This document shows, piece after piece, positions 4,515 to 35,738 of a DNA stretch of 47,579 bases (within the stretch, counting starts at the first letter, position 1; each line of letters begins with the position of its first letter). Source of the stretch: Acidobacteriota bacterium. GTDB taxonomy: Bacteria; Acidobacteriota; Terriglobia; Acidiferrales; UBA7541. The DNA is taken from assembly GCA_016201215.1 (NCBI GenBank), contig JACQDH010000155.1, positions 1 to 47,579 of the forward strand, written 5' to 3'. The position numbers were made by a program, and so were the translations under genes. Below the pieces are notes generated by a model. It was given only the letters and a program-made list of their open reading frames with translations, had not been told where the DNA came from and made no database searches.

Positions 4515-5069
4515 CTAGAGCTGGCCCTCGATGGCCTTCACCAATTCGTCGTGATTCACCAGGCCGACGATCGTTTTGACTTTCTTGCCCTCGCGGGAGA
4601 TCAGCATGCTGGTGGGGAGTCCGATCAGCCCGCCAAACTTGTCGGCGATTTCGTCCGAACCCAGCAGGATGGGGTAATTCACGGTGGTTGGCTGGCCGTT
4701 CACGTCGAAGCGCTCCTGGGTCACGAACGGCTCAACGACCTTCTTGCCCTCGTCGTCCATGGCCACGCCCAGCACAGTGAAGCCGCGCGGGCCGTATTGC
4801 TGCTGGAACTCGATCAGCCAGGGAATTTCAATCCGGCAGGGCCCGCACCAAGTGGCCCAGAAATTCACCAGCACCACCTTGCCTTTGTACTGCGCCAGGC
4901 TGACGTCGTTGCCCTGAAGATCTTTGAAGACGACATCCGGCGCAGCCGCCGCGGGTGCGGTTGTCGCTTTCGCCGTGGGCTTGGTGCCTTTGCGCATTGC
5001 TCCGTCGGCCCAGAACATCAGGGCGAGCATCGCCGCGAGCGTAATGCCGATCAGAAGCGTCTTCTTCAT
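4515..5069 (-). CDS. TlpA/ResA-family thioredoxin-like protein
   Basis: 184 aa. An N-terminal hydrophobic anchor (about residues 4-21) and an Ala/Thr-rich linker precede a thioredoxin fold with the redox motif WCGPC (in FWATWCGPCRIEIPWL), the cis-proline region GLPTSMLISREGK and a C-terminal helix. Such proteins are periplasm-facing thiol reductants, often for cytochrome c apoproteins, and are kept reduced by CcdA. It lies 40 bp downstream of ccdA in the same orientation, which supports that electron route. A c-type cytochrome is encoded at 44957-45349. The start is the ATG at 5069; a GGAG sits about ten bases upstream. Confidence 0.88.
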   Translation of the reverse strand: MKKTLLIGITLAAMLALMFWADGAMRKGTKPTAKATTAPAAAAPDVVFKDLQGNDVSLAQYKGKVVLVNFWATWCGPCRIEIPWLIEFQQQYGPRGFTVLGVAMDDEGKKVVEPFVTQERFDVNGQPTTVNYPILLGSDEIADKFGGLIGLPTSMLISREGKKVKTIVGLVNHDELVKAIEGQL

Positions 5070-5109: not shown

Positions 5110-5946
5110 CTACCAAGCAAAACGATTCAGAAACCCCAATTTACCCGAAAGCCAAGTCAGCCGGTTGATGAAAACCAGCCCGCCCACAAACAGCAGCAGC
5201 ACGCCGCTAGAAACTTCGACCGCGTGTAGATGCCGCCGGAAGCGCTGGTAAAAGTGCAGGAAGCGACTGATGCCCAGCGCGGTGAGCAAGAAGGGGATGG
5301 CCAAGCCGGCCGAATAGACGGCCAGCAGGAAGACTCCTCGCACGATCGTCTCGCTGGTGGCGGCGATGGCCAGCACGCCGGCCAGGATCGGCCCGATGCA
5401 GGGCGTCCAGCCGAATGCGAACGCGAAGCCCAAGAGGAACCCACTGGCCATGCCGGGACTCCCGCCTAGGTTGCGGAAATGAACGTCGCGGTTGAGCCAT
5501 CCGCTGAGAAACGGGCCCAGGAGAAAGATCAGCGAAACTGAAGCAAGGTGCGCCCGGCTGAACCCGAGGATAAGGCCCAGGGCCAGCAACACGGCCGCAA
5601 TCGCCAGGCCGACGCGGATGGAGATGTATTTCAACCAGCCCACCAGATGCAGGCCGAATAGCATGATTACTGCTCCCGCCAGCGGCGCCAGCACGTTGCG
5701 GTTGTGTACCAGAAACCGTCCAACGGCGCTGGCCGAGGCGCCAAAAGCGATGAACACCACCGAAAACCCCGCGACAAACGCCAGCGAGGACCCCAGCAGG
5801 CTGCGGCGCGGCTGCTGGCCCTGCTGGAGCTGTTCGACTCCGATTCCCGATAGCATGGAGATGTAGCCCGGCACCAGCGGCAGCACGCATGGCGACAGGA
5901 ACGACACCCGCCCAGCGATAAAGGCAGCGAGTATCCCTACTTCCAT
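5110..5946 (-). CDS. ccdA: CcdA/DsbD-type transmembrane thiol-electron carrier
   Basis: About 278 aa from the ATG at 5946, preceded by AGGGAAGA. A longer upstream frame adds 30 polar residues that the family does not have. It is a polytopic inner-membrane protein that passes electrons from cytoplasmic thioredoxin to periplasmic thiol partners. The two redox cysteines sit in the family motifs FLSPCVLPLVPGYI (TM1) and GWTPCIGPIL (the mirror-image repeat). Hydrophobic segments fit six or more helices. The protein is somewhat longer than a minimal CcdA (about 220-240 aa), the extra length lying between the two half-repeats. It is the first gene of the minus-strand block and is followed by the TlpA gene. 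Confidence 0.88.
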   Translation of the reverse strand: MEVGILAAFIAGRVSFLSPCVLPLVPGYISMLSGIGVEQLQQGQQPRRSLLGSSLAFVAGFSVVFIAFGASASAVGRFLVHNRNVLAPLAGAVIMLFGLHLVGWLKYISIRVGLAIAAVLLALGLILGFSRAHLASVSLIFLLGPFLSGWLNRDVHFRNLGGSPGMASGFLLGFAFAFGWTPCIGPILAGVLAIAATSETIVRGVFLLAVYSAGLAIPFLLTALGISRFLHFYQRFRRHLHAVEVSSGVLLLFVGGLVFINRLTWLSGKLGFLNRFAW

Positions 5947-6329
5947 GAAGTCTTCCCTTTGAACTGCTCCTCTCTTGGATGCCCGGTACGCCCCAAGCGC
6001 TTCGGGCAGTCGCCTATTCTCCCATATTCGACTCACCCCCGCAGCTTAGGGTGAGCACCCCGGCTCATGGCTCCGTGTTCCCCGCCGGGCAAAGAGCCTG
6101 TGTTGGCCTTCCATGCAGGGTACGCCCGTCAGGTGCAACAAAAACCATGCGCCGCTACAGCGATCGGCATGGCGGCGCACGGCGCAGTCCATCTACTAAG
6201 TCATTGAATTGTTGACCACTTGTAGCTACTCGGGACTGTGCGGACCAGTGGCATCCGAGGTGCCCTTCCATGGGCGTGCCCCCGCCTCTTCCCGCCGGTC
6301 CGGGATGAGGGGGTGCCGAGGAGGCGCGC
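5947..6329. other. 383-bp divergent intergenic region with two inverted repeats
   Basis: Non-coding spacer between ccdA (minus) and the lipid cassette (plus), so it must hold both promoters, though I see no convincing -35/-10 pair. It contains two clear inverted repeats: CTCACCC (6032-6038) with GGGTGAG (6049-6055), and TGCGCCGC (6148-6155) with GCGGCGCA (6172-6179). The right edge carries the strong ribosome-binding site GAGGAGG (6318-6324) of the first cassette gene. The hallmark motifs of tmRNA and RNase P RNA are absent. Confidence 0.5.
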
Positions 6330-7037
6330 ATGACACCGAACCAAATTACGACGCTGCGCGTGGCGCTGGCATTTGCGGCCGTGGCGCTTTTCGGCCAGAA
6401 CACCGGAGTCAATCTCACCGCGCTCGCGCTGATCGTGGTGGCCATTGCGCTCGACGGAGTGGACGGCTACCTGGCGCGGCGAAAGAACCTGGCCACACCG
6501 CTCGGGGCGCAGCTCGACATTCTGGGCGACCGCGTCATTGAAAACCTCTTCTTCACATTTTTTGCGGTCACGGGCTTGGTTTCGCTGTGGGTGCCGGTGG
6601 TGTTCTTTGTGCGCGGGACGCTGACCGATTTCATTCGCAGCCTCGCCGCCCGCTCCGGGCGAGTCGGCTTTGGGAAGAACGGGATGCTGGAAACCTGGTG
6701 GGGCCGCGCGCTGATGGACTCACGCAGCAGCCGCGCCGCCTACGCTGCGCTGAAGTGTATTTGCTTCTGCTGGCTCGGCCTGGAGTTGACCTGGGCGCGC
6801 GGTGGGGCCGCCGCCCTGCGTCTGGCAGGCGGGTCTGGGCATGCGCTGCTTCAACTCGGCGCGCAAGTCCTGGTCGGCGCGACGCTGACGTTTTGCCTGG
6901 TGCGGGCGCTGCCGGTGGTCTGGGAGGGCCGGCGATACCTGGTTGCGCTGGCTCACGCCGGGCCGCGCCCTGCCAGAGCGCCGGCGCGAGTCCGCGTGCC
7001 CCAGCATCGCGAAGCCCGGGTGGGATCGGTCCACTAG
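6330..7037 (+). CDS. CDP-alcohol phosphatidyltransferase (PIP-synthase or PgsA-like)
   Basis: 235 aa membrane enzyme that transfers a phosphatidyl group from CDP-diacylglycerol to an alcohol or sugar phosphate. The complete catalytic signature is present: D42-xx-D45-G46-xx-A49-R50-x8-G59-xxx-D63-xxx-D67, which binds two metal ions and the CDP head. About six hydrophobic segments fit the family. A strong GAGGAGG site five bases before the ATG supports the start. The next gene, a HAD phosphatase, begins 16 bp downstream and an Aur1-like PAP2 gene follows, so the three form one operon. That neighbourhood suggests the product is a phosphatidyl-inositol-phosphate-type intermediate. Phosphatidylglycerophosphate is the main alternative. 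The C-terminal tail after about residue 210 is basic and looks unstructured. Confidence 0.85.
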   Translation: MTPNQITTLRVALAFAAVALFGQNTGVNLTALALIVVAIALDGVDGYLARRKNLATPLGAQLDILGDRVIENLFFTFFAVTGLVSLWVPVVFFVRGTLTDFIRSLAARSGRVGFGKNGMLETWWGRALMDSRSSRAAYAALKCICFCWLGLELTWARGGAAALRLAGGSGHALLQLGAQVLVGATLTFCLVRALPVVWEGRRYLVALAHAGPRPARAPARVRVPQHREARVGSVH

Positions 7038-7053
7038 GCGGAAAGGACTGTGC

Positions 7054-7791
7054 ATGGCCATCGGCGCATTTTTCGATCTCGACGGCACGCTGCTGGGCTC
7101 GCCCTCACTCGAGCGGCGTTTCCTGCGCTACCTTCGCTGGCGGGGCGACCTCACCGCGGCGCACGCAGCGCGGTGGCTCCTCGAATTCATGCGGCGGGTT
7201 TGGCGCGATCCCTCCGGCGCCGTGCATGGCAACAAGGCGCACCTTACCGGAGTGCGCACCGGCACGGTCGATGCTTTCCTGGCATCACTCTCCCGTCATC
7301 CATTCGCATTCTTTCCAGATTCGCTCGTGCGCCTGGAATGGCATGCCGCGCAAGGACACAGGATTTTCCTGGTTAGCGGCACATTGAAGCCGCTGGCGGA
7401 GGCTGTCTGCCTTCAACTGCTGGTGAAGATGACGCCATGCGGCACTGAACTCGATGTGGTCGAAGGCCGCTGGACCGGCGAAGTGCTGGGCGAAGCCGTG
7501 TGCGGGCCCGGGAAGCCCCGTGCACTGGCACGGCTGGCTTCCGCGCACGGGCTCGATCTGGGCAGCAGCTATGCCTACGGTGACAGTTGGGGTGACCGCC
7601 TGATGCTCGAATCTGTCGGCCACCCCGCCGCTGTCAATCCCTCCGCGCGGCTCGAGCGCCTGGCTTGCCAGCGAGGCTGGCCGATTCTGCGGTGGCAGGA
7701 AAGGGACTCGCCGCAGGCGCATGGAGGTGCGGCGGCAGTGGCCCGAAGAGCGCAGCGAGAGGGAATTCCGATCTTTCTGAATACGAAGTGA
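7054..7791 (+). CDS. HAD-superfamily (subfamily IB) phosphatase
   Basis: 245 aa from the ATG at 7054, preceded by GGAAAGGA (7040-7047). A longer in-frame extension overlaps the previous gene and is rejected. The HAD motifs are intact: nucleophile FDLDGTLL (D8, D10), motif II in FLVSGTLKPLAEA, a conserved Lys in GPGKPRALARL, and the metal-binding AYGDSWGDRLML. SerB and the phosphatidylglycerophosphatase PgpC belong to subfamily IB. Being the middle gene between a CDP-alcohol phosphatidyltransferase and a PAP2 transferase, it most likely removes the terminal phosphate from the lipid-phosphate product of the first enzyme. The substrate is inferred from context. Confidence 0.82.
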   Translation: MAIGAFFDLDGTLLGSPSLERRFLRYLRWRGDLTAAHAARWLLEFMRRVWRDPSGAVHGNKAHLTGVRTGTVDAFLASLSRHPFAFFPDSLVRLEWHAAQGHRIFLVSGTLKPLAEAVCLQLLVKMTPCGTELDVVEGRWTGEVLGEAVCGPGKPRALARLASAHGLDLGSSYAYGDSWGDRLMLESVGHPAAVNPSARLERLACQRGWPILRWQERDSPQAHGGAAAVARRAQREGIPIFLNTK

Positions 7792-7812
7792 TGCCTGATG
7801 CAGGAGTGACTT

Positions 7813-8868
7813 ATGAAGCCGTTGCACAGGACGGAAACGATCGAGCGCTCCGATGCGGCGATAATTCTGCCTTGGCGCGACCCCGCACCTTACCGCACGG
7901 GCCGCAACCGGATCATCTCGGGCTGCCTGGCCGCAGTCGCGACGTGGTTGCGCGAAGCCGTCGCCTCGTGCGGTGCGTTCGAGTGGGTGGGGCTCGGCTA
8001 TCTGGGCGTGTCGAGCGTGCTGATCGCCATTTTTCACGGTCATCTGCCCAGAGCCTGGGGCTATCTGGTGGTGCAAGCAGGTGTCGCCGCCTTGATCCTC
8101 GCGCTCAGCCGGGCGGCGGCCAATTCCGCTGCGCGCGCTGCCGGGGGCGGGAGGCCATCGAGGGTCATTGTTTTCATACGCTCCTGGTATCCACAGGCAC
8201 TTTTCCTCTTCTGCTTTGAAGAGCTGCACTACCTGGTGCACCTGATTTTCCCCGGGTGGTTCGACCGCTGGCTGATTGCGTTTGATCACTGGCTGGTGGG
8301 CGTGCACCCGACGGTGTGGCTCGAGCAGTTTGCGAGCCCCGCGCTCAATGACTTCATGCAAATGGCCTACATCACTTACTTCTTCTACCTCACGATCCTG
8401 GGAGCCATTCTGTACCGGCGAGAGGAACACCGCGCCTTCTGGGCGGTCATGACATCTTCGATCACGGCCTACTCGATGGGTTACGTGATCTCCATCGTGT
8501 TTCCCATTGAAAGCCCCTTCCATGCGCTGGCCGCGCTGCAGCGCGTGGAGCTGACTGGTGGCTTTTTCACGTCGCTGATCGGGCTGGTCGAGCGATTCGG
8601 CCGGGTCCATGGCGCCGCGTTCCCTTCGGCGCACGTCTCGGGATCCTGCGTCGCGCTGCTGGGCGCGTGGCGCTATCGGCGCTGGCTGTTCTGGATCTTC
8701 CTGCCGTTCTTCCTGGCCATGCTGGTCTCCACGGTCTATGGCCGCTACCACTACATTGCTGACGTGCTCGGGGGCCTGGTGGTCGGCGCTGTCGGCTTCG
8801 GGCTGGGGCATCGCCTGATGTGGATTCGCGGCGCCTGGTCTTCCGCGCCCTTCCGCGCGCCCAGTTAG
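7813..8868 (+). CDS. Aur1/Ipt1-like PAP2_3-family membrane phosphotransferase
   Basis: 351 aa polytopic membrane protein. Two PAP2 motifs are readable: FPSAHVSGS (catalytic His274) and STVYGRYHYIADVLGG (His313, Asp317). In the second motif the Ser-Arg of ordinary PAP2 phosphatases is replaced by S-T-V-Y, with aromatic residues around the His. This is the form seen in the inositolphosphotransferase (Aur1/Ipt1) branch. Enzymes of that branch move a phospho-inositol head from phosphatidylinositol to another lipid such as ceramide or diacylglycerol. A simple lipid phosphatase remains possible. The gene begins 21 bp after the HAD gene and converges with the amidase gene 32 bp beyond its stop. Confidence 0.78.
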   Translation: MKPLHRTETIERSDAAIILPWRDPAPYRTGRNRIISGCLAAVATWLREAVASCGAFEWVGLGYLGVSSVLIAIFHGHLPRAWGYLVVQAGVAALILALSRAAANSAARAAGGGRPSRVIVFIRSWYPQALFLFCFEELHYLVHLIFPGWFDRWLIAFDHWLVGVHPTVWLEQFASPALNDFMQMAYITYFFYLTILGAILYRREEHRAFWAVMTSSITAYSMGYVISIVFPIESPFHALAALQRVELTGGFFTSLIGLVERFGRVHGAAFPSAHVSGSCVALLGAWRYRRWLFWIFLPFFLAMLVSTVYGRYHYIADVLGGLVVGAVGFGLGHRLMWIRGAWSSAPFRAPS

Positions 8869-8900: not shown

Positions 8901-10334
8901 TCAGAGCCCCGGCGGATATTGCGTGTGCCATTCAGTGGCGCGCTCGTAGGCGCTGGCTATGCGCAGTAGCTGTGCCTCGCCCCACATTGGACCGATCAGT
9001 TGCAATCCGATCGGCAGGTGCTCCCGCGTGAAGCCGCAGGGAATTGAAATCGCCGGCACGCCTGCGAAATTCGCCGGCCGGTTCAGCCGCAGCAGCGCGC
9101 TGCGTACGGGTTCCTCCTCGGCGCCGATCTTGGCCACCGCGGCATCGATTGCCGGAGCGGCGATAGGCGTGGTCGGCACGAGAAGTGCATCCACCCGTGT
9201 AAAGGCAGCGGCAAAATCCTGGCGCACCTGCTTGCGTACCTCGAGCGCCGCGAGGTAGTCAATCGCGCGGACGTCAGCGCCCGCCTGGAGCCGCTTGCGG
9301 ACGTCTTCGCCGTAGTCCGCAGCGCGCGCGGGGAACCAGCCCTGGCTTTCATGGTAGTGGCGCGCCTCGACGAGCGCGATGTGGTTGCCGGCATCGCCGG
9401 ATGCGGCCACGCGCGGCAGCGAAACCTCTTCGATTGTCGCACCCAACCGCTCGAACTCTCGTGCGACTTGCTCGATCGCGCGGCGGATTTCGTCGCCCAC
9501 GCGGTCAAGAAAGAAGTCGCGGGGCCAGCCCAGACGGAGTCCCCGAACAGGCTTTCGCAGCTTGGCCGCGTACTCTGGCACGCGCTGCGCAGTTATGCTT
9601 GCATCGTAGGGGTCGCGCCCGGCAATGACGCGGAGCAGAATCGCCGCATCCGCTACCGTGCGCGCGAGCGGACCAACGTGGTCGAGACTCGCTGACAACG
9701 GCACGACACCGTGGCAACTCACACGCCCAAAGGTCGGTTTGAGTCCCACGATGCCGCAGAGCGCCGCGGGAATGCGGATCGAGCCGCCTGTGTCGCTGCC
9801 CACCGACGCAAAGCACAGCCCCGCGGCAACAGCTGCGGCCGAGCCACCGCTCGAACCGCCTGGAATATGCGTGAGGTCCCACGGGTTGCGCGTGGGACCG
9901 AAGTGGGGATTGTTCGTTGTGACCCCGTACGCGAACTCGTGCAGGTTAGTTTTCCCGAGCAGGACCGCCCCGGCCTGCTGCAGGCGCCGCACGACCGTGG
10001 CGTCTTGGGCAGGTACGAATTCGCGCAGTATTTTCGAGCCCGCGGTGGTGCGGATGCCACGTGTCCAGATGTTGTCCTTGAGCGCGACGGGGATGCCATG
10101 GAGCAGCCCGCGGTAGTGAGCCCGTCCCCGCAACCCGAAGATTTCTTTTTCTGTGCGACGCGCCTCCGAGAGGGCCCGCTCCGCGGTGACCGTCAGGAAG
10201 GCGTTCAGGCGCGGGTTCTGCTGCCCGATGCGGCGCAGCAGCATTTCGACCAGCTCGACCGGGGAGACCTTCTTCTTCTCGATCAGCCGTGCCAGTTTCT
10301 CGATGGACCAGAAGGCGATCTCGTGAGGATCCAT
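8901..10334 (-). CDS. Amidase-signature-family hydrolase (GatA-like)
   Basis: 477 aa, close to the usual GatA length. The Ser-cisSer-Lys triad is complete: Lys86 in VALKDNIWTRG, cis-Ser161 in GGSSGGSAAAV, and nucleophile Ser185 in GSDTGGSIRIPA. The 75- and 24-residue spacings match GatA. The protein hydrolyses an amide, or generates ammonia as GatA does within GatCAB. No gatB or gatC lies nearby, and this family has many stand-alone amidases, so I call it an amidase and not gatA. It has no signal peptide. It starts 27 bp downstream of the lptD stop on the same strand and is probably co-transcribed with it, although no functional link is evident. Confidence 0.85.
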   Translation of the reverse strand: MDPHEIAFWSIEKLARLIEKKKVSPVELVEMLLRRIGQQNPRLNAFLTVTAERALSEARRTEKEIFGLRGRAHYRGLLHGIPVALKDNIWTRGIRTTAGSKILREFVPAQDATVVRRLQQAGAVLLGKTNLHEFAYGVTTNNPHFGPTRNPWDLTHIPGGSSGGSAAAVAAGLCFASVGSDTGGSIRIPAALCGIVGLKPTFGRVSCHGVVPLSASLDHVGPLARTVADAAILLRVIAGRDPYDASITAQRVPEYAAKLRKPVRGLRLGWPRDFFLDRVGDEIRRAIEQVAREFERLGATIEEVSLPRVAASGDAGNHIALVEARHYHESQGWFPARAADYGEDVRKRLQAGADVRAIDYLAALEVRKQVRQDFAAAFTRVDALLVPTTPIAAPAIDAAVAKIGAEEEPVRSALLRLNRPANFAGVPAISIPCGFTREHLPIGLQLIGPMWGEAQLLRIASAYERATEWHTQYPPGL

Positions 10335-35648: not shown

Positions 35649-35738
35649 TGGCGGAGGAGGAGGGATTCGAACCCCCGAGACCCTTTCGGGCCTAGCGGTT
35701 TTCAAGACCGCCGCCTTCAACCGCTCGGCCACTCCTCC
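35649..35738 (-). tRNA. tRNA-Ser (UGA anticodon)
   Basis: 90 nt on the minus strand with a long variable arm typical of class II tRNAs. Acceptor GGAGGAG (35738-35732) pairs with CTCCTCC (35659-35653). The T-loop is TTCGAAT, with a 5-bp stem containing one G-T pair. The anticodon TGA is at 35704-35702 in the loop CTTGAAA. The discriminator is G and the 3' CCA is encoded (35651-35649). Reads UCA and other UCN codons. Confidence 0.96.

Follow-up and report, generated by a model that had tools for sequence, protein, structure and literature searches.

Introduction

In Bacteroides thetaiotaomicron, the inositol-lipid cluster BT_1522-1526 brings together a CDP-alcohol phosphatidyltransferase gene, a gene for an Aur1-like PAP2 protein, a myo-inositol-phosphate synthase (MIPS) gene and BT_1525, the Bacteroides phosphatidylinositol phosphate (PIP) phosphatase, which belongs to the PgpA family (PMC9246714). 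A putative inositol route in Bacteroides vulgatus and Prevotella relies on another cluster, in which a CDP-alcohol phosphatidyltransferase gene adjoins a HAD hydrolase gene and is accompanied by a nucleoside triphosphate (NTP) transferase gene (PMC9246714). Phosphatidylglycerol (PG) synthesis provides a further comparison: the phosphatidylglycerol phosphate (PGP) synthase PgsA can be paired with a soluble HAD phosphatase of the PgpC type, which acts on PGP (PMC11629553). Here, we analyse a cassette with likenesses to each of these systems, at positions 6330-8868 of a 47,579-nucleotide stretch of DNA (the window, contig C248 of our numbering) from a metagenome-assembled genome (MAG) of a soil Acidobacteriota of the Acidiferrales (assembly of 3.29 Mb, 80.6% complete), which named homologues assign to Candidatus Acidiferrales, 'gp2'. 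The cassette encodes a CDP-alcohol phosphatidyltransferase (gene 1), a HAD-IB phosphatase (gene 2) and a PAP2 membrane protein (gene 3), a trio on which our literature search found no study. The original prediction took it for an inositol-lipid cluster. Our results show that it is a real three-gene lipid unit, gained or lost as one block. They also suggest, with a probability of slightly under one half (about 0.48), that it constitutes a second, optional anionic-phospholipid (PG-type) branch feeding an Aur1-fold phosphotransferase.

The cassette behaves as a single block in gain and loss

Gene 1 (6330..7037), gene 2 (7054..7791) and gene 3 (7813..8868) all lie on the plus strand, with 16 and 21 bp between them. 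The ATG start of gene 2 at 7054 sits within a longer, mechanically called open reading frame. Purine-rich stretches resembling ribosome-binding sites precede the three starts (gaggagg, ggaaagg and aggag, respectively); a promoter scan returned nothing above chance with a consensus type that suits this organism poorly. Pfam assigns the products to PF01066 (64.8 bits), the HAD family PF12710 (94.9 bits) and the PAP2_3 family PF14378 (75.2 bits), all above cut-off, so that both the gene order with its spacing and the enzyme superfamilies originally predicted are confirmed. Among NCBIfam models, the HAD protein passes TIGR01490, and no equivalog is assigned to the products of genes 1 and 3.

Orthologues in other genera occur in the same order, with identities of 53-68% for gene 1, 43-53% for the HAD protein and 45-53% for the PAP2 protein. 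The full trio is present in 37 of the 40 Acidiferrales loci (GTDB), the remaining three ending at contig edges. This completeness, together with the order kept across genera, argues against a chance association. The surroundings are conserved in relatives as well, in the order TlpA-CcdA, cassette, amidase, LptD. All family genomes that bear the cassette carry it at a single site, between the gene of a CcdA/DsbD-type membrane protein (5110..6036, minus strand), a conserved left border that cassette-free genomes also have, and that of a GatA-type amidase (8901..10334, minus strand), the conserved right border. The TlpA-like thioredoxin gene that partners ccdA (4515..5069, minus strand) belongs to this border context, outside the cassette. 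A close orthologue of the PAP2 protein is encoded in 10 of 37 family genomes. The ccdA and amidase genes are directly adjacent in 17 of the 22 cassette-free loci examined, among them that of a genome of the same genus (G001), where about 130 bp separate the two.

Mapped on a CcdA tree, the presence and absence of the cassette requires five changes, of which at least three are forced by well-supported branches. This pattern is most simply explained by an ancestral site from which the cassette was lost several times, although repeated recombination at the same site may also produce it. The trio was found, moreover, at unrelated loci, one in a genome of the Blastocatellia (L110) and one in a further family of Acidobacteriota (L241). 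Because it stays intact across loci, comes and goes at one site and recurs at these two unrelated positions, we consider the three genes a functional unit.

Gene 1 is damaged in two genomes in which the HAD and PAP2 genes are open. Its N-terminal half lies in a different frame in G016 (L028:9160-9840 and L108), and about 18 residues around transmembrane helices (TM) 3 and 4 are missing in G028 (L034:5533-6159). Decay or assembly error could be responsible; both cases would fit a cassette that is still being lost.

Gene 1 belongs to a third clade of CDP-alcohol phosphatidyltransferases

The catalytic motif of gene 1, DGVDGYLARRKNLATPLGAQLDILGD, is intact and conforms to Dx2DGx2AR...Gx3Dx3D, which is common to the whole superfamily and does not discriminate between its members. 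The protein scores 57 bits on the pgsA model TIGR00560 (cut-off 109), 52 on archaetidylinositol-phosphate synthase (180), 31 on PIPSynth (170) and 15 on the BT_1523 model (350). A maximum-likelihood tree of 64 rows resolves separate clades for PIP synthases (PIPS; 100/99), PgsA (96/89) and gene 1 with its relatives (99/98). The proposed placement of gene 1 among PIP synthases thus fails, and so does its assignment to canonical PgsA. Approximately unbiased (AU) tests on the sister group of the gene-1 clade gave p values of 0.08-0.29, the highest being that for sisterhood with PIPS. The clade occurs in at least five phyla (Acidobacteriota, Pseudomonadota, Chloroflexota, Poribacteria and Melainabacteria).

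Three independent lines of evidence make glycerol 3-phosphate the likely acceptor of gene 1, which would then be a PGP-synthase-like enzyme. First, the gene-1 family provides the only CDP-alcohol phosphatidyltransferase in all six Gastranaerophilales genomes that have it, and all six also carry lgt, whose product uses PG as substrate. Canonical PgsA was not found in the two Gastranaerophilales genomes tested with TIGR00560. Second, in 11 Salinisphaera-type loci the gene-1 homologue has gpsA (glycerol-3-phosphate dehydrogenase) as its immediate upstream neighbour and is followed by a HAD gene. Third, the AlphaFold model of gene 1 (predicted local distance difference test, pLDDT, 87.9) best matches the PGP synthase of Staphylococcus aureus (Z 18.6, root-mean-square deviation 2.5 Å, 169 aligned residues, 26% identity), followed by the PIPS of Renibacterium salmoninarum (Z 14.6, 3.3 Å, 18% identity), and R95 and R103 in TM4 align with the two arginines of the canonical PgsA motif RE.....LR (R-x7-R), at an identical, gap-free distance from the catalytic motif. 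Gene 1 and PgsA are alike in fold, catalytic motif and TM4 arginines, but differ in TM5, where gene 1 has R-x2-R...K instead of G-K-x-K.

Inositol-phosphate binding by the mycobacterial PIPS involves S132, K135, R137 and R155 of the SYxKARAE and ERPER motifs, and R195; mutagenesis of Mycobacterium tuberculosis PgsA1 has shown that R137 and R155 matter for the use of inositol phosphate (PMC6506517, PMC4634129). The RARAE and ERPER motifs are absent from gene 1 and its relatives. Together with the tree, the PIPSynth score and the better structural fit to PGP synthase, this led us to reject the identification of gene 1 as a PIP synthase. The R-x2-R of TM5 and a C-terminal arginine nevertheless leave room for a partly PIPS-like pocket.

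Two further observations concern the gene-1 clade outside Acidobacteriota. In Ardenticatena (L127:5075-5983), a homologue directly follows a gene of the CysQ/inositol-monophosphatase family; we set this neighbour aside as a hint of inositol metabolism, its best score being to CysQ and below cut-off. A Poribacteria MAG (G078) encodes nine CDP-alcohol phosphatidyltransferases (L181, L190, L193, L195 and L197-L201), among them several copies of the gene-1 clade, four of which were placed there by the tree. A diversification of head groups is possible in this genome. The Gastranaerophilales loci of the sole gene-1-clade enzyme (L111-L114, L119 and L143) belong to reduced genomes.

The HAD protein is a candidate PgpC-like phosphatase

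The gene 2 product scores 103.2 bits on TIGR01490 (cut-off 98.3) and keeps the conserved DxDGT, SGT, K and GDS..D motifs. Its only Pfam match is to HAD and not to the PgpA family PF04608, whose member in this genome is encoded on another contig (C91). The claim that the enzyme types of the cassette are exactly those of the Bacteroides cluster is therefore wrong, since BT_1525 is a PgpA-family protein. A HAD gene adjoins the gene-1 homologue downstream in 17 proteobacterial loci, as it does in Acidobacteriota. Judging from this linkage, the simplest role for the HAD protein, and quite probably the correct one, would be the dephosphorylation of the gene 1 product, as PgpC does with PGP.

The PAP2 protein has an Aur1-like fold

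Gene 3 encodes an integral membrane protein predicted to be a head-group phosphotransferase or a lipid phosphatase acting on the product of the cassette. The structural comparison of its model (pLDDT 76.6) bears out the expected likeness to Aur1: the top folds are those of Aur1/inositol phosphorylceramide (IPC) synthase (9vj4 and 9ivc; Z 13.0 over 243-261 residues, most of the protein), and the match takes in the N-terminal helices at about 16% identity. The next folds are LpxE (Z 11.5, 158 residues), an SMS-related protein (10.3, 200 residues) and PgpB (10.2, 175 residues), so that the Aur1 score is not far above those of PAP2 phosphatases. Sequence comparisons gave weak matches, to YodM and Aur1 when the profile was run against PDB sequences (E 0.05-0.09) and to phosphoinositol dihydroceramide synthase (PhinosDhcerSyn, E 0.004).

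The protein shares with Aur1/IPC synthase the motifs PSxH (here PSAH) and ST...HYxxD, and it has ST-x5-H in place of the SR-x5-H of phosphatases. The motif on which the original prediction relied, STVYGRYHYIAD, is indeed present. We rejected STVY...HY as an Aur1-specific sign, because it is a general feature of the phylum's PAP2_3 proteins, including many stand-alone ones that also carry ST-x5-H; STVY...HYxxD denotes the PAP2_3 family rather than Aur1. From the fold, we predict a head-group phosphotransferase in preference to a phosphatase, at about even odds.

Inositol phosphoceramide, another proposed product, would call for ceramide. No serine palmitoyltransferase (SPT) scored above the NF047600 cut-off in the genome itself (80.6% complete) or in 11 relatives; candidates were limited to BioF/Kbl-type enzymes, one of which is the best match of the genome to the SPT model. 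A ceramide acceptor is accordingly without support, and the resemblance to Aur1/IPC synthase stops short of the ceramide pathway and probably of the donor, which would be PG-type rather than phosphatidylinositol (PI).

Probable inositol-lipid genes of the class lie outside the cassette

The genome encodes five CDP-alcohol phosphatidyltransferases: gene 1, a canonical PgsA (C4, 149 bits), a PgsA-related protein placed by the tree (C168), a PssA-like protein (C123, 112 bits, above cut-off) and a protein of mycobacterial/archaeal PIPS type (C257). The last of these (locus L040) reaches 169 bits on archaetidylinositol-phosphate synthase (cut-off 180) and 141 on PIPSynth (170), and matches solved mycobacterial PIP synthases at 1e-26. 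Unlike gene 1, the C257 protein and its relatives carry SYxRARAE and ERPER, and with these motifs the residues on which inositol-phosphate use was found to depend in the mutagenesis work. The MIPS gene expected under the original prediction does exist in the genome, on yet another contig (C166).

The class sample includes 45 good genomes; a PIPS-type gene is present in 44 of them and MIPS in 42, with or without the cassette. Conversely, one cassette-bearing genome (G006, 98% complete in about 10 contigs) has no MIPS match. A Terriglobia isolate is reported to contain a little PI, as measured by high-performance liquid chromatography-mass spectrometry (PMC12935467). The organism thus probably makes PI, as originally suggested, but from genes other than the cassette, and the class may have inherited PI synthesis from its ancestor. 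Many genomes of the class hold a second, more distant PIPS-type copy (43-58% identity).

As a side observation, the window contains a single tRNA-Ser(TGA) gene (35649-35738, minus strand).

Discussion

The cassette resembles the pairing of PgsA with a PgpC-type HAD phosphatase in the family, catalytic motif and TM4 arginines of its first enzyme, in the structure that this enzyme matches best, in its soluble HAD partner and, through Salinisphaera, in its gpsA neighbour. It departs from that route by its linked PAP2_3 gene and by the presence of a canonical PgsA elsewhere in the genome. The B. thetaiotaomicron cluster shares with it the clustering of a CDP-alcohol phosphatidyltransferase gene with an Aur1-like PAP2 gene, but contains a PgpA-family phosphatase and its own MIPS gene, where the cassette has a HAD gene and MIPS lies on a different contig. 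As for the B. vulgatus and Prevotella cluster, which we compared by its description, the HAD neighbour is common to both, whereas the cassette has neither NTP transferase nor MIPS and has PAP2_3 as its third gene.

We therefore favour the PG-type branch, the alternative that the original prediction had itself named and that fits better than inositol, even if gene 1 is not the canonical PgsA. The linkage, co-inheritance, families, clade and folds described above are observed, and we infer all substrates of the following scheme. The CDP-alcohol phosphatidyltransferase would exchange the CMP of CDP-diacylglycerol for sn-glycerol 3-phosphate, yielding PGP. The cytoplasmic HAD-IB enzyme would then strip the terminal phosphate, in the manner of PgpC, to give PG. 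Finally, the Aur1-fold PAP2_3 enzyme, with a His-Asp-His-type site, would act on PG, most likely by moving the phosphoglycerol head group to another lipid acceptor with release of diacylglycerol, as Aur1 does with PI; we infer this direction as well. A bolder and rather unlikely extension is that the gene-1 clade represents a third class of PGP synthases, joined in Acidobacteriota by an Aur1-fold partner with PG, and not PI, as donor, giving rise to a new phosphoglycerol lipid.

Several points weigh against a PG-type branch. With canonical PgsA and PgpA already encoded in the genome, a second one is unneeded, and Salinisphaera also carries a canonical PgsA besides its gene-1 homologue. Gene 1 falls under the pgsA cut-off and outside the PgsA clade, with the AU tests accepting different deep branchings. 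The R-x2-R spacing of its TM5 is found in the ERPER motif of PIPS too, so the acceptor pocket is mixed, and acceptor specificity can switch at 35-40% identity. The PAP2 model is moderately confident, and the HAD and PAP2 proteins could both be phosphatases.

This last possibility would turn the cassette into a redundant PG pathway, with gene 1 as the source of PGP and with two lipid phosphatases, the PgpC-like HAD protein and a PgpB/YodM-like PAP2 protein, acting on PGP, phosphatidic acid or polyprenyl diphosphate on either side of the membrane. Several PGP phosphatases per organism are common, the fold of the PAP2 protein is also that of PgpB and YodM (Z 10.0-10.2), and YodM is its top, albeit weak, sequence match (E 0.055). 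We nonetheless consider this scenario unlikely: Aur1/IPC synthase gives both the best and the longest structural matches, N-terminal helices included, the arginine of the phosphatase motif is replaced by threonine, and the genome would already be served by PgsA and PgpA. Alternatively, the acceptor of gene 1 could be some other alcohol or alcohol phosphate, such as a polyol, a sugar phosphate or glycerol 1-phosphate, and the cassette would then produce an unrecognised head group. This idea arises because the R-x2-R spacing of TM5 recalls PIPS and canonical PgsA is encoded elsewhere in the genome; the separation of the clade from PgsA, PIPS and PssA, the coexistence of gene 1 with canonical PgsA and PIPS in one genome and the multiple copies in one Poribacteria genome, suggestive of specificity changes, go in the same direction. 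It seems improbable to us in view of the sole enzyme of the lgt-bearing Gastranaerophilales, the gpsA linkage and the close structural match to PGP synthase. An inositol-lipid cassette, in which gene 1 makes PIP, the HAD protein dephosphorylates it and the PAP2 protein transfers phosphoinositol to ceramide or another lipid, would accommodate the MIPS gene, the Aur1-like fold, the weak PhinosDhcerSyn matches (E 0.004 and 0.00016), the putative B. vulgatus route, the TM5 arginines and the AU result for PIPS sisterhood, but is very doubtful given the class-wide PIPS-type gene on C257, the lack of RARAE/ERPER in gene 1 and its fit to PGP synthase, the PgpA-type BT_1525, the cassette-bearing genome without MIPS, the lack of SPT above cut-off and the absence of any MIPS or NTP transferase gene next to the cassette in the loci that we inspected.

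Reading the trio as a PG-type branch corrects a tempting annotation suggested by its likeness to inositol clusters. The likely PI genes of the class lie outside the cassette and are nearly universal there. Our analysis also brings to light an apparently uncharacterised clade of CDP-alcohol phosphatidyltransferases, which in gut Gastranaerophilales supplies the single enzyme of this kind and whose acceptor is a well-posed question. If the clade is indeed a third class of PGP synthases, it would be the sole head-group synthase of the superfamily in these bacteria.

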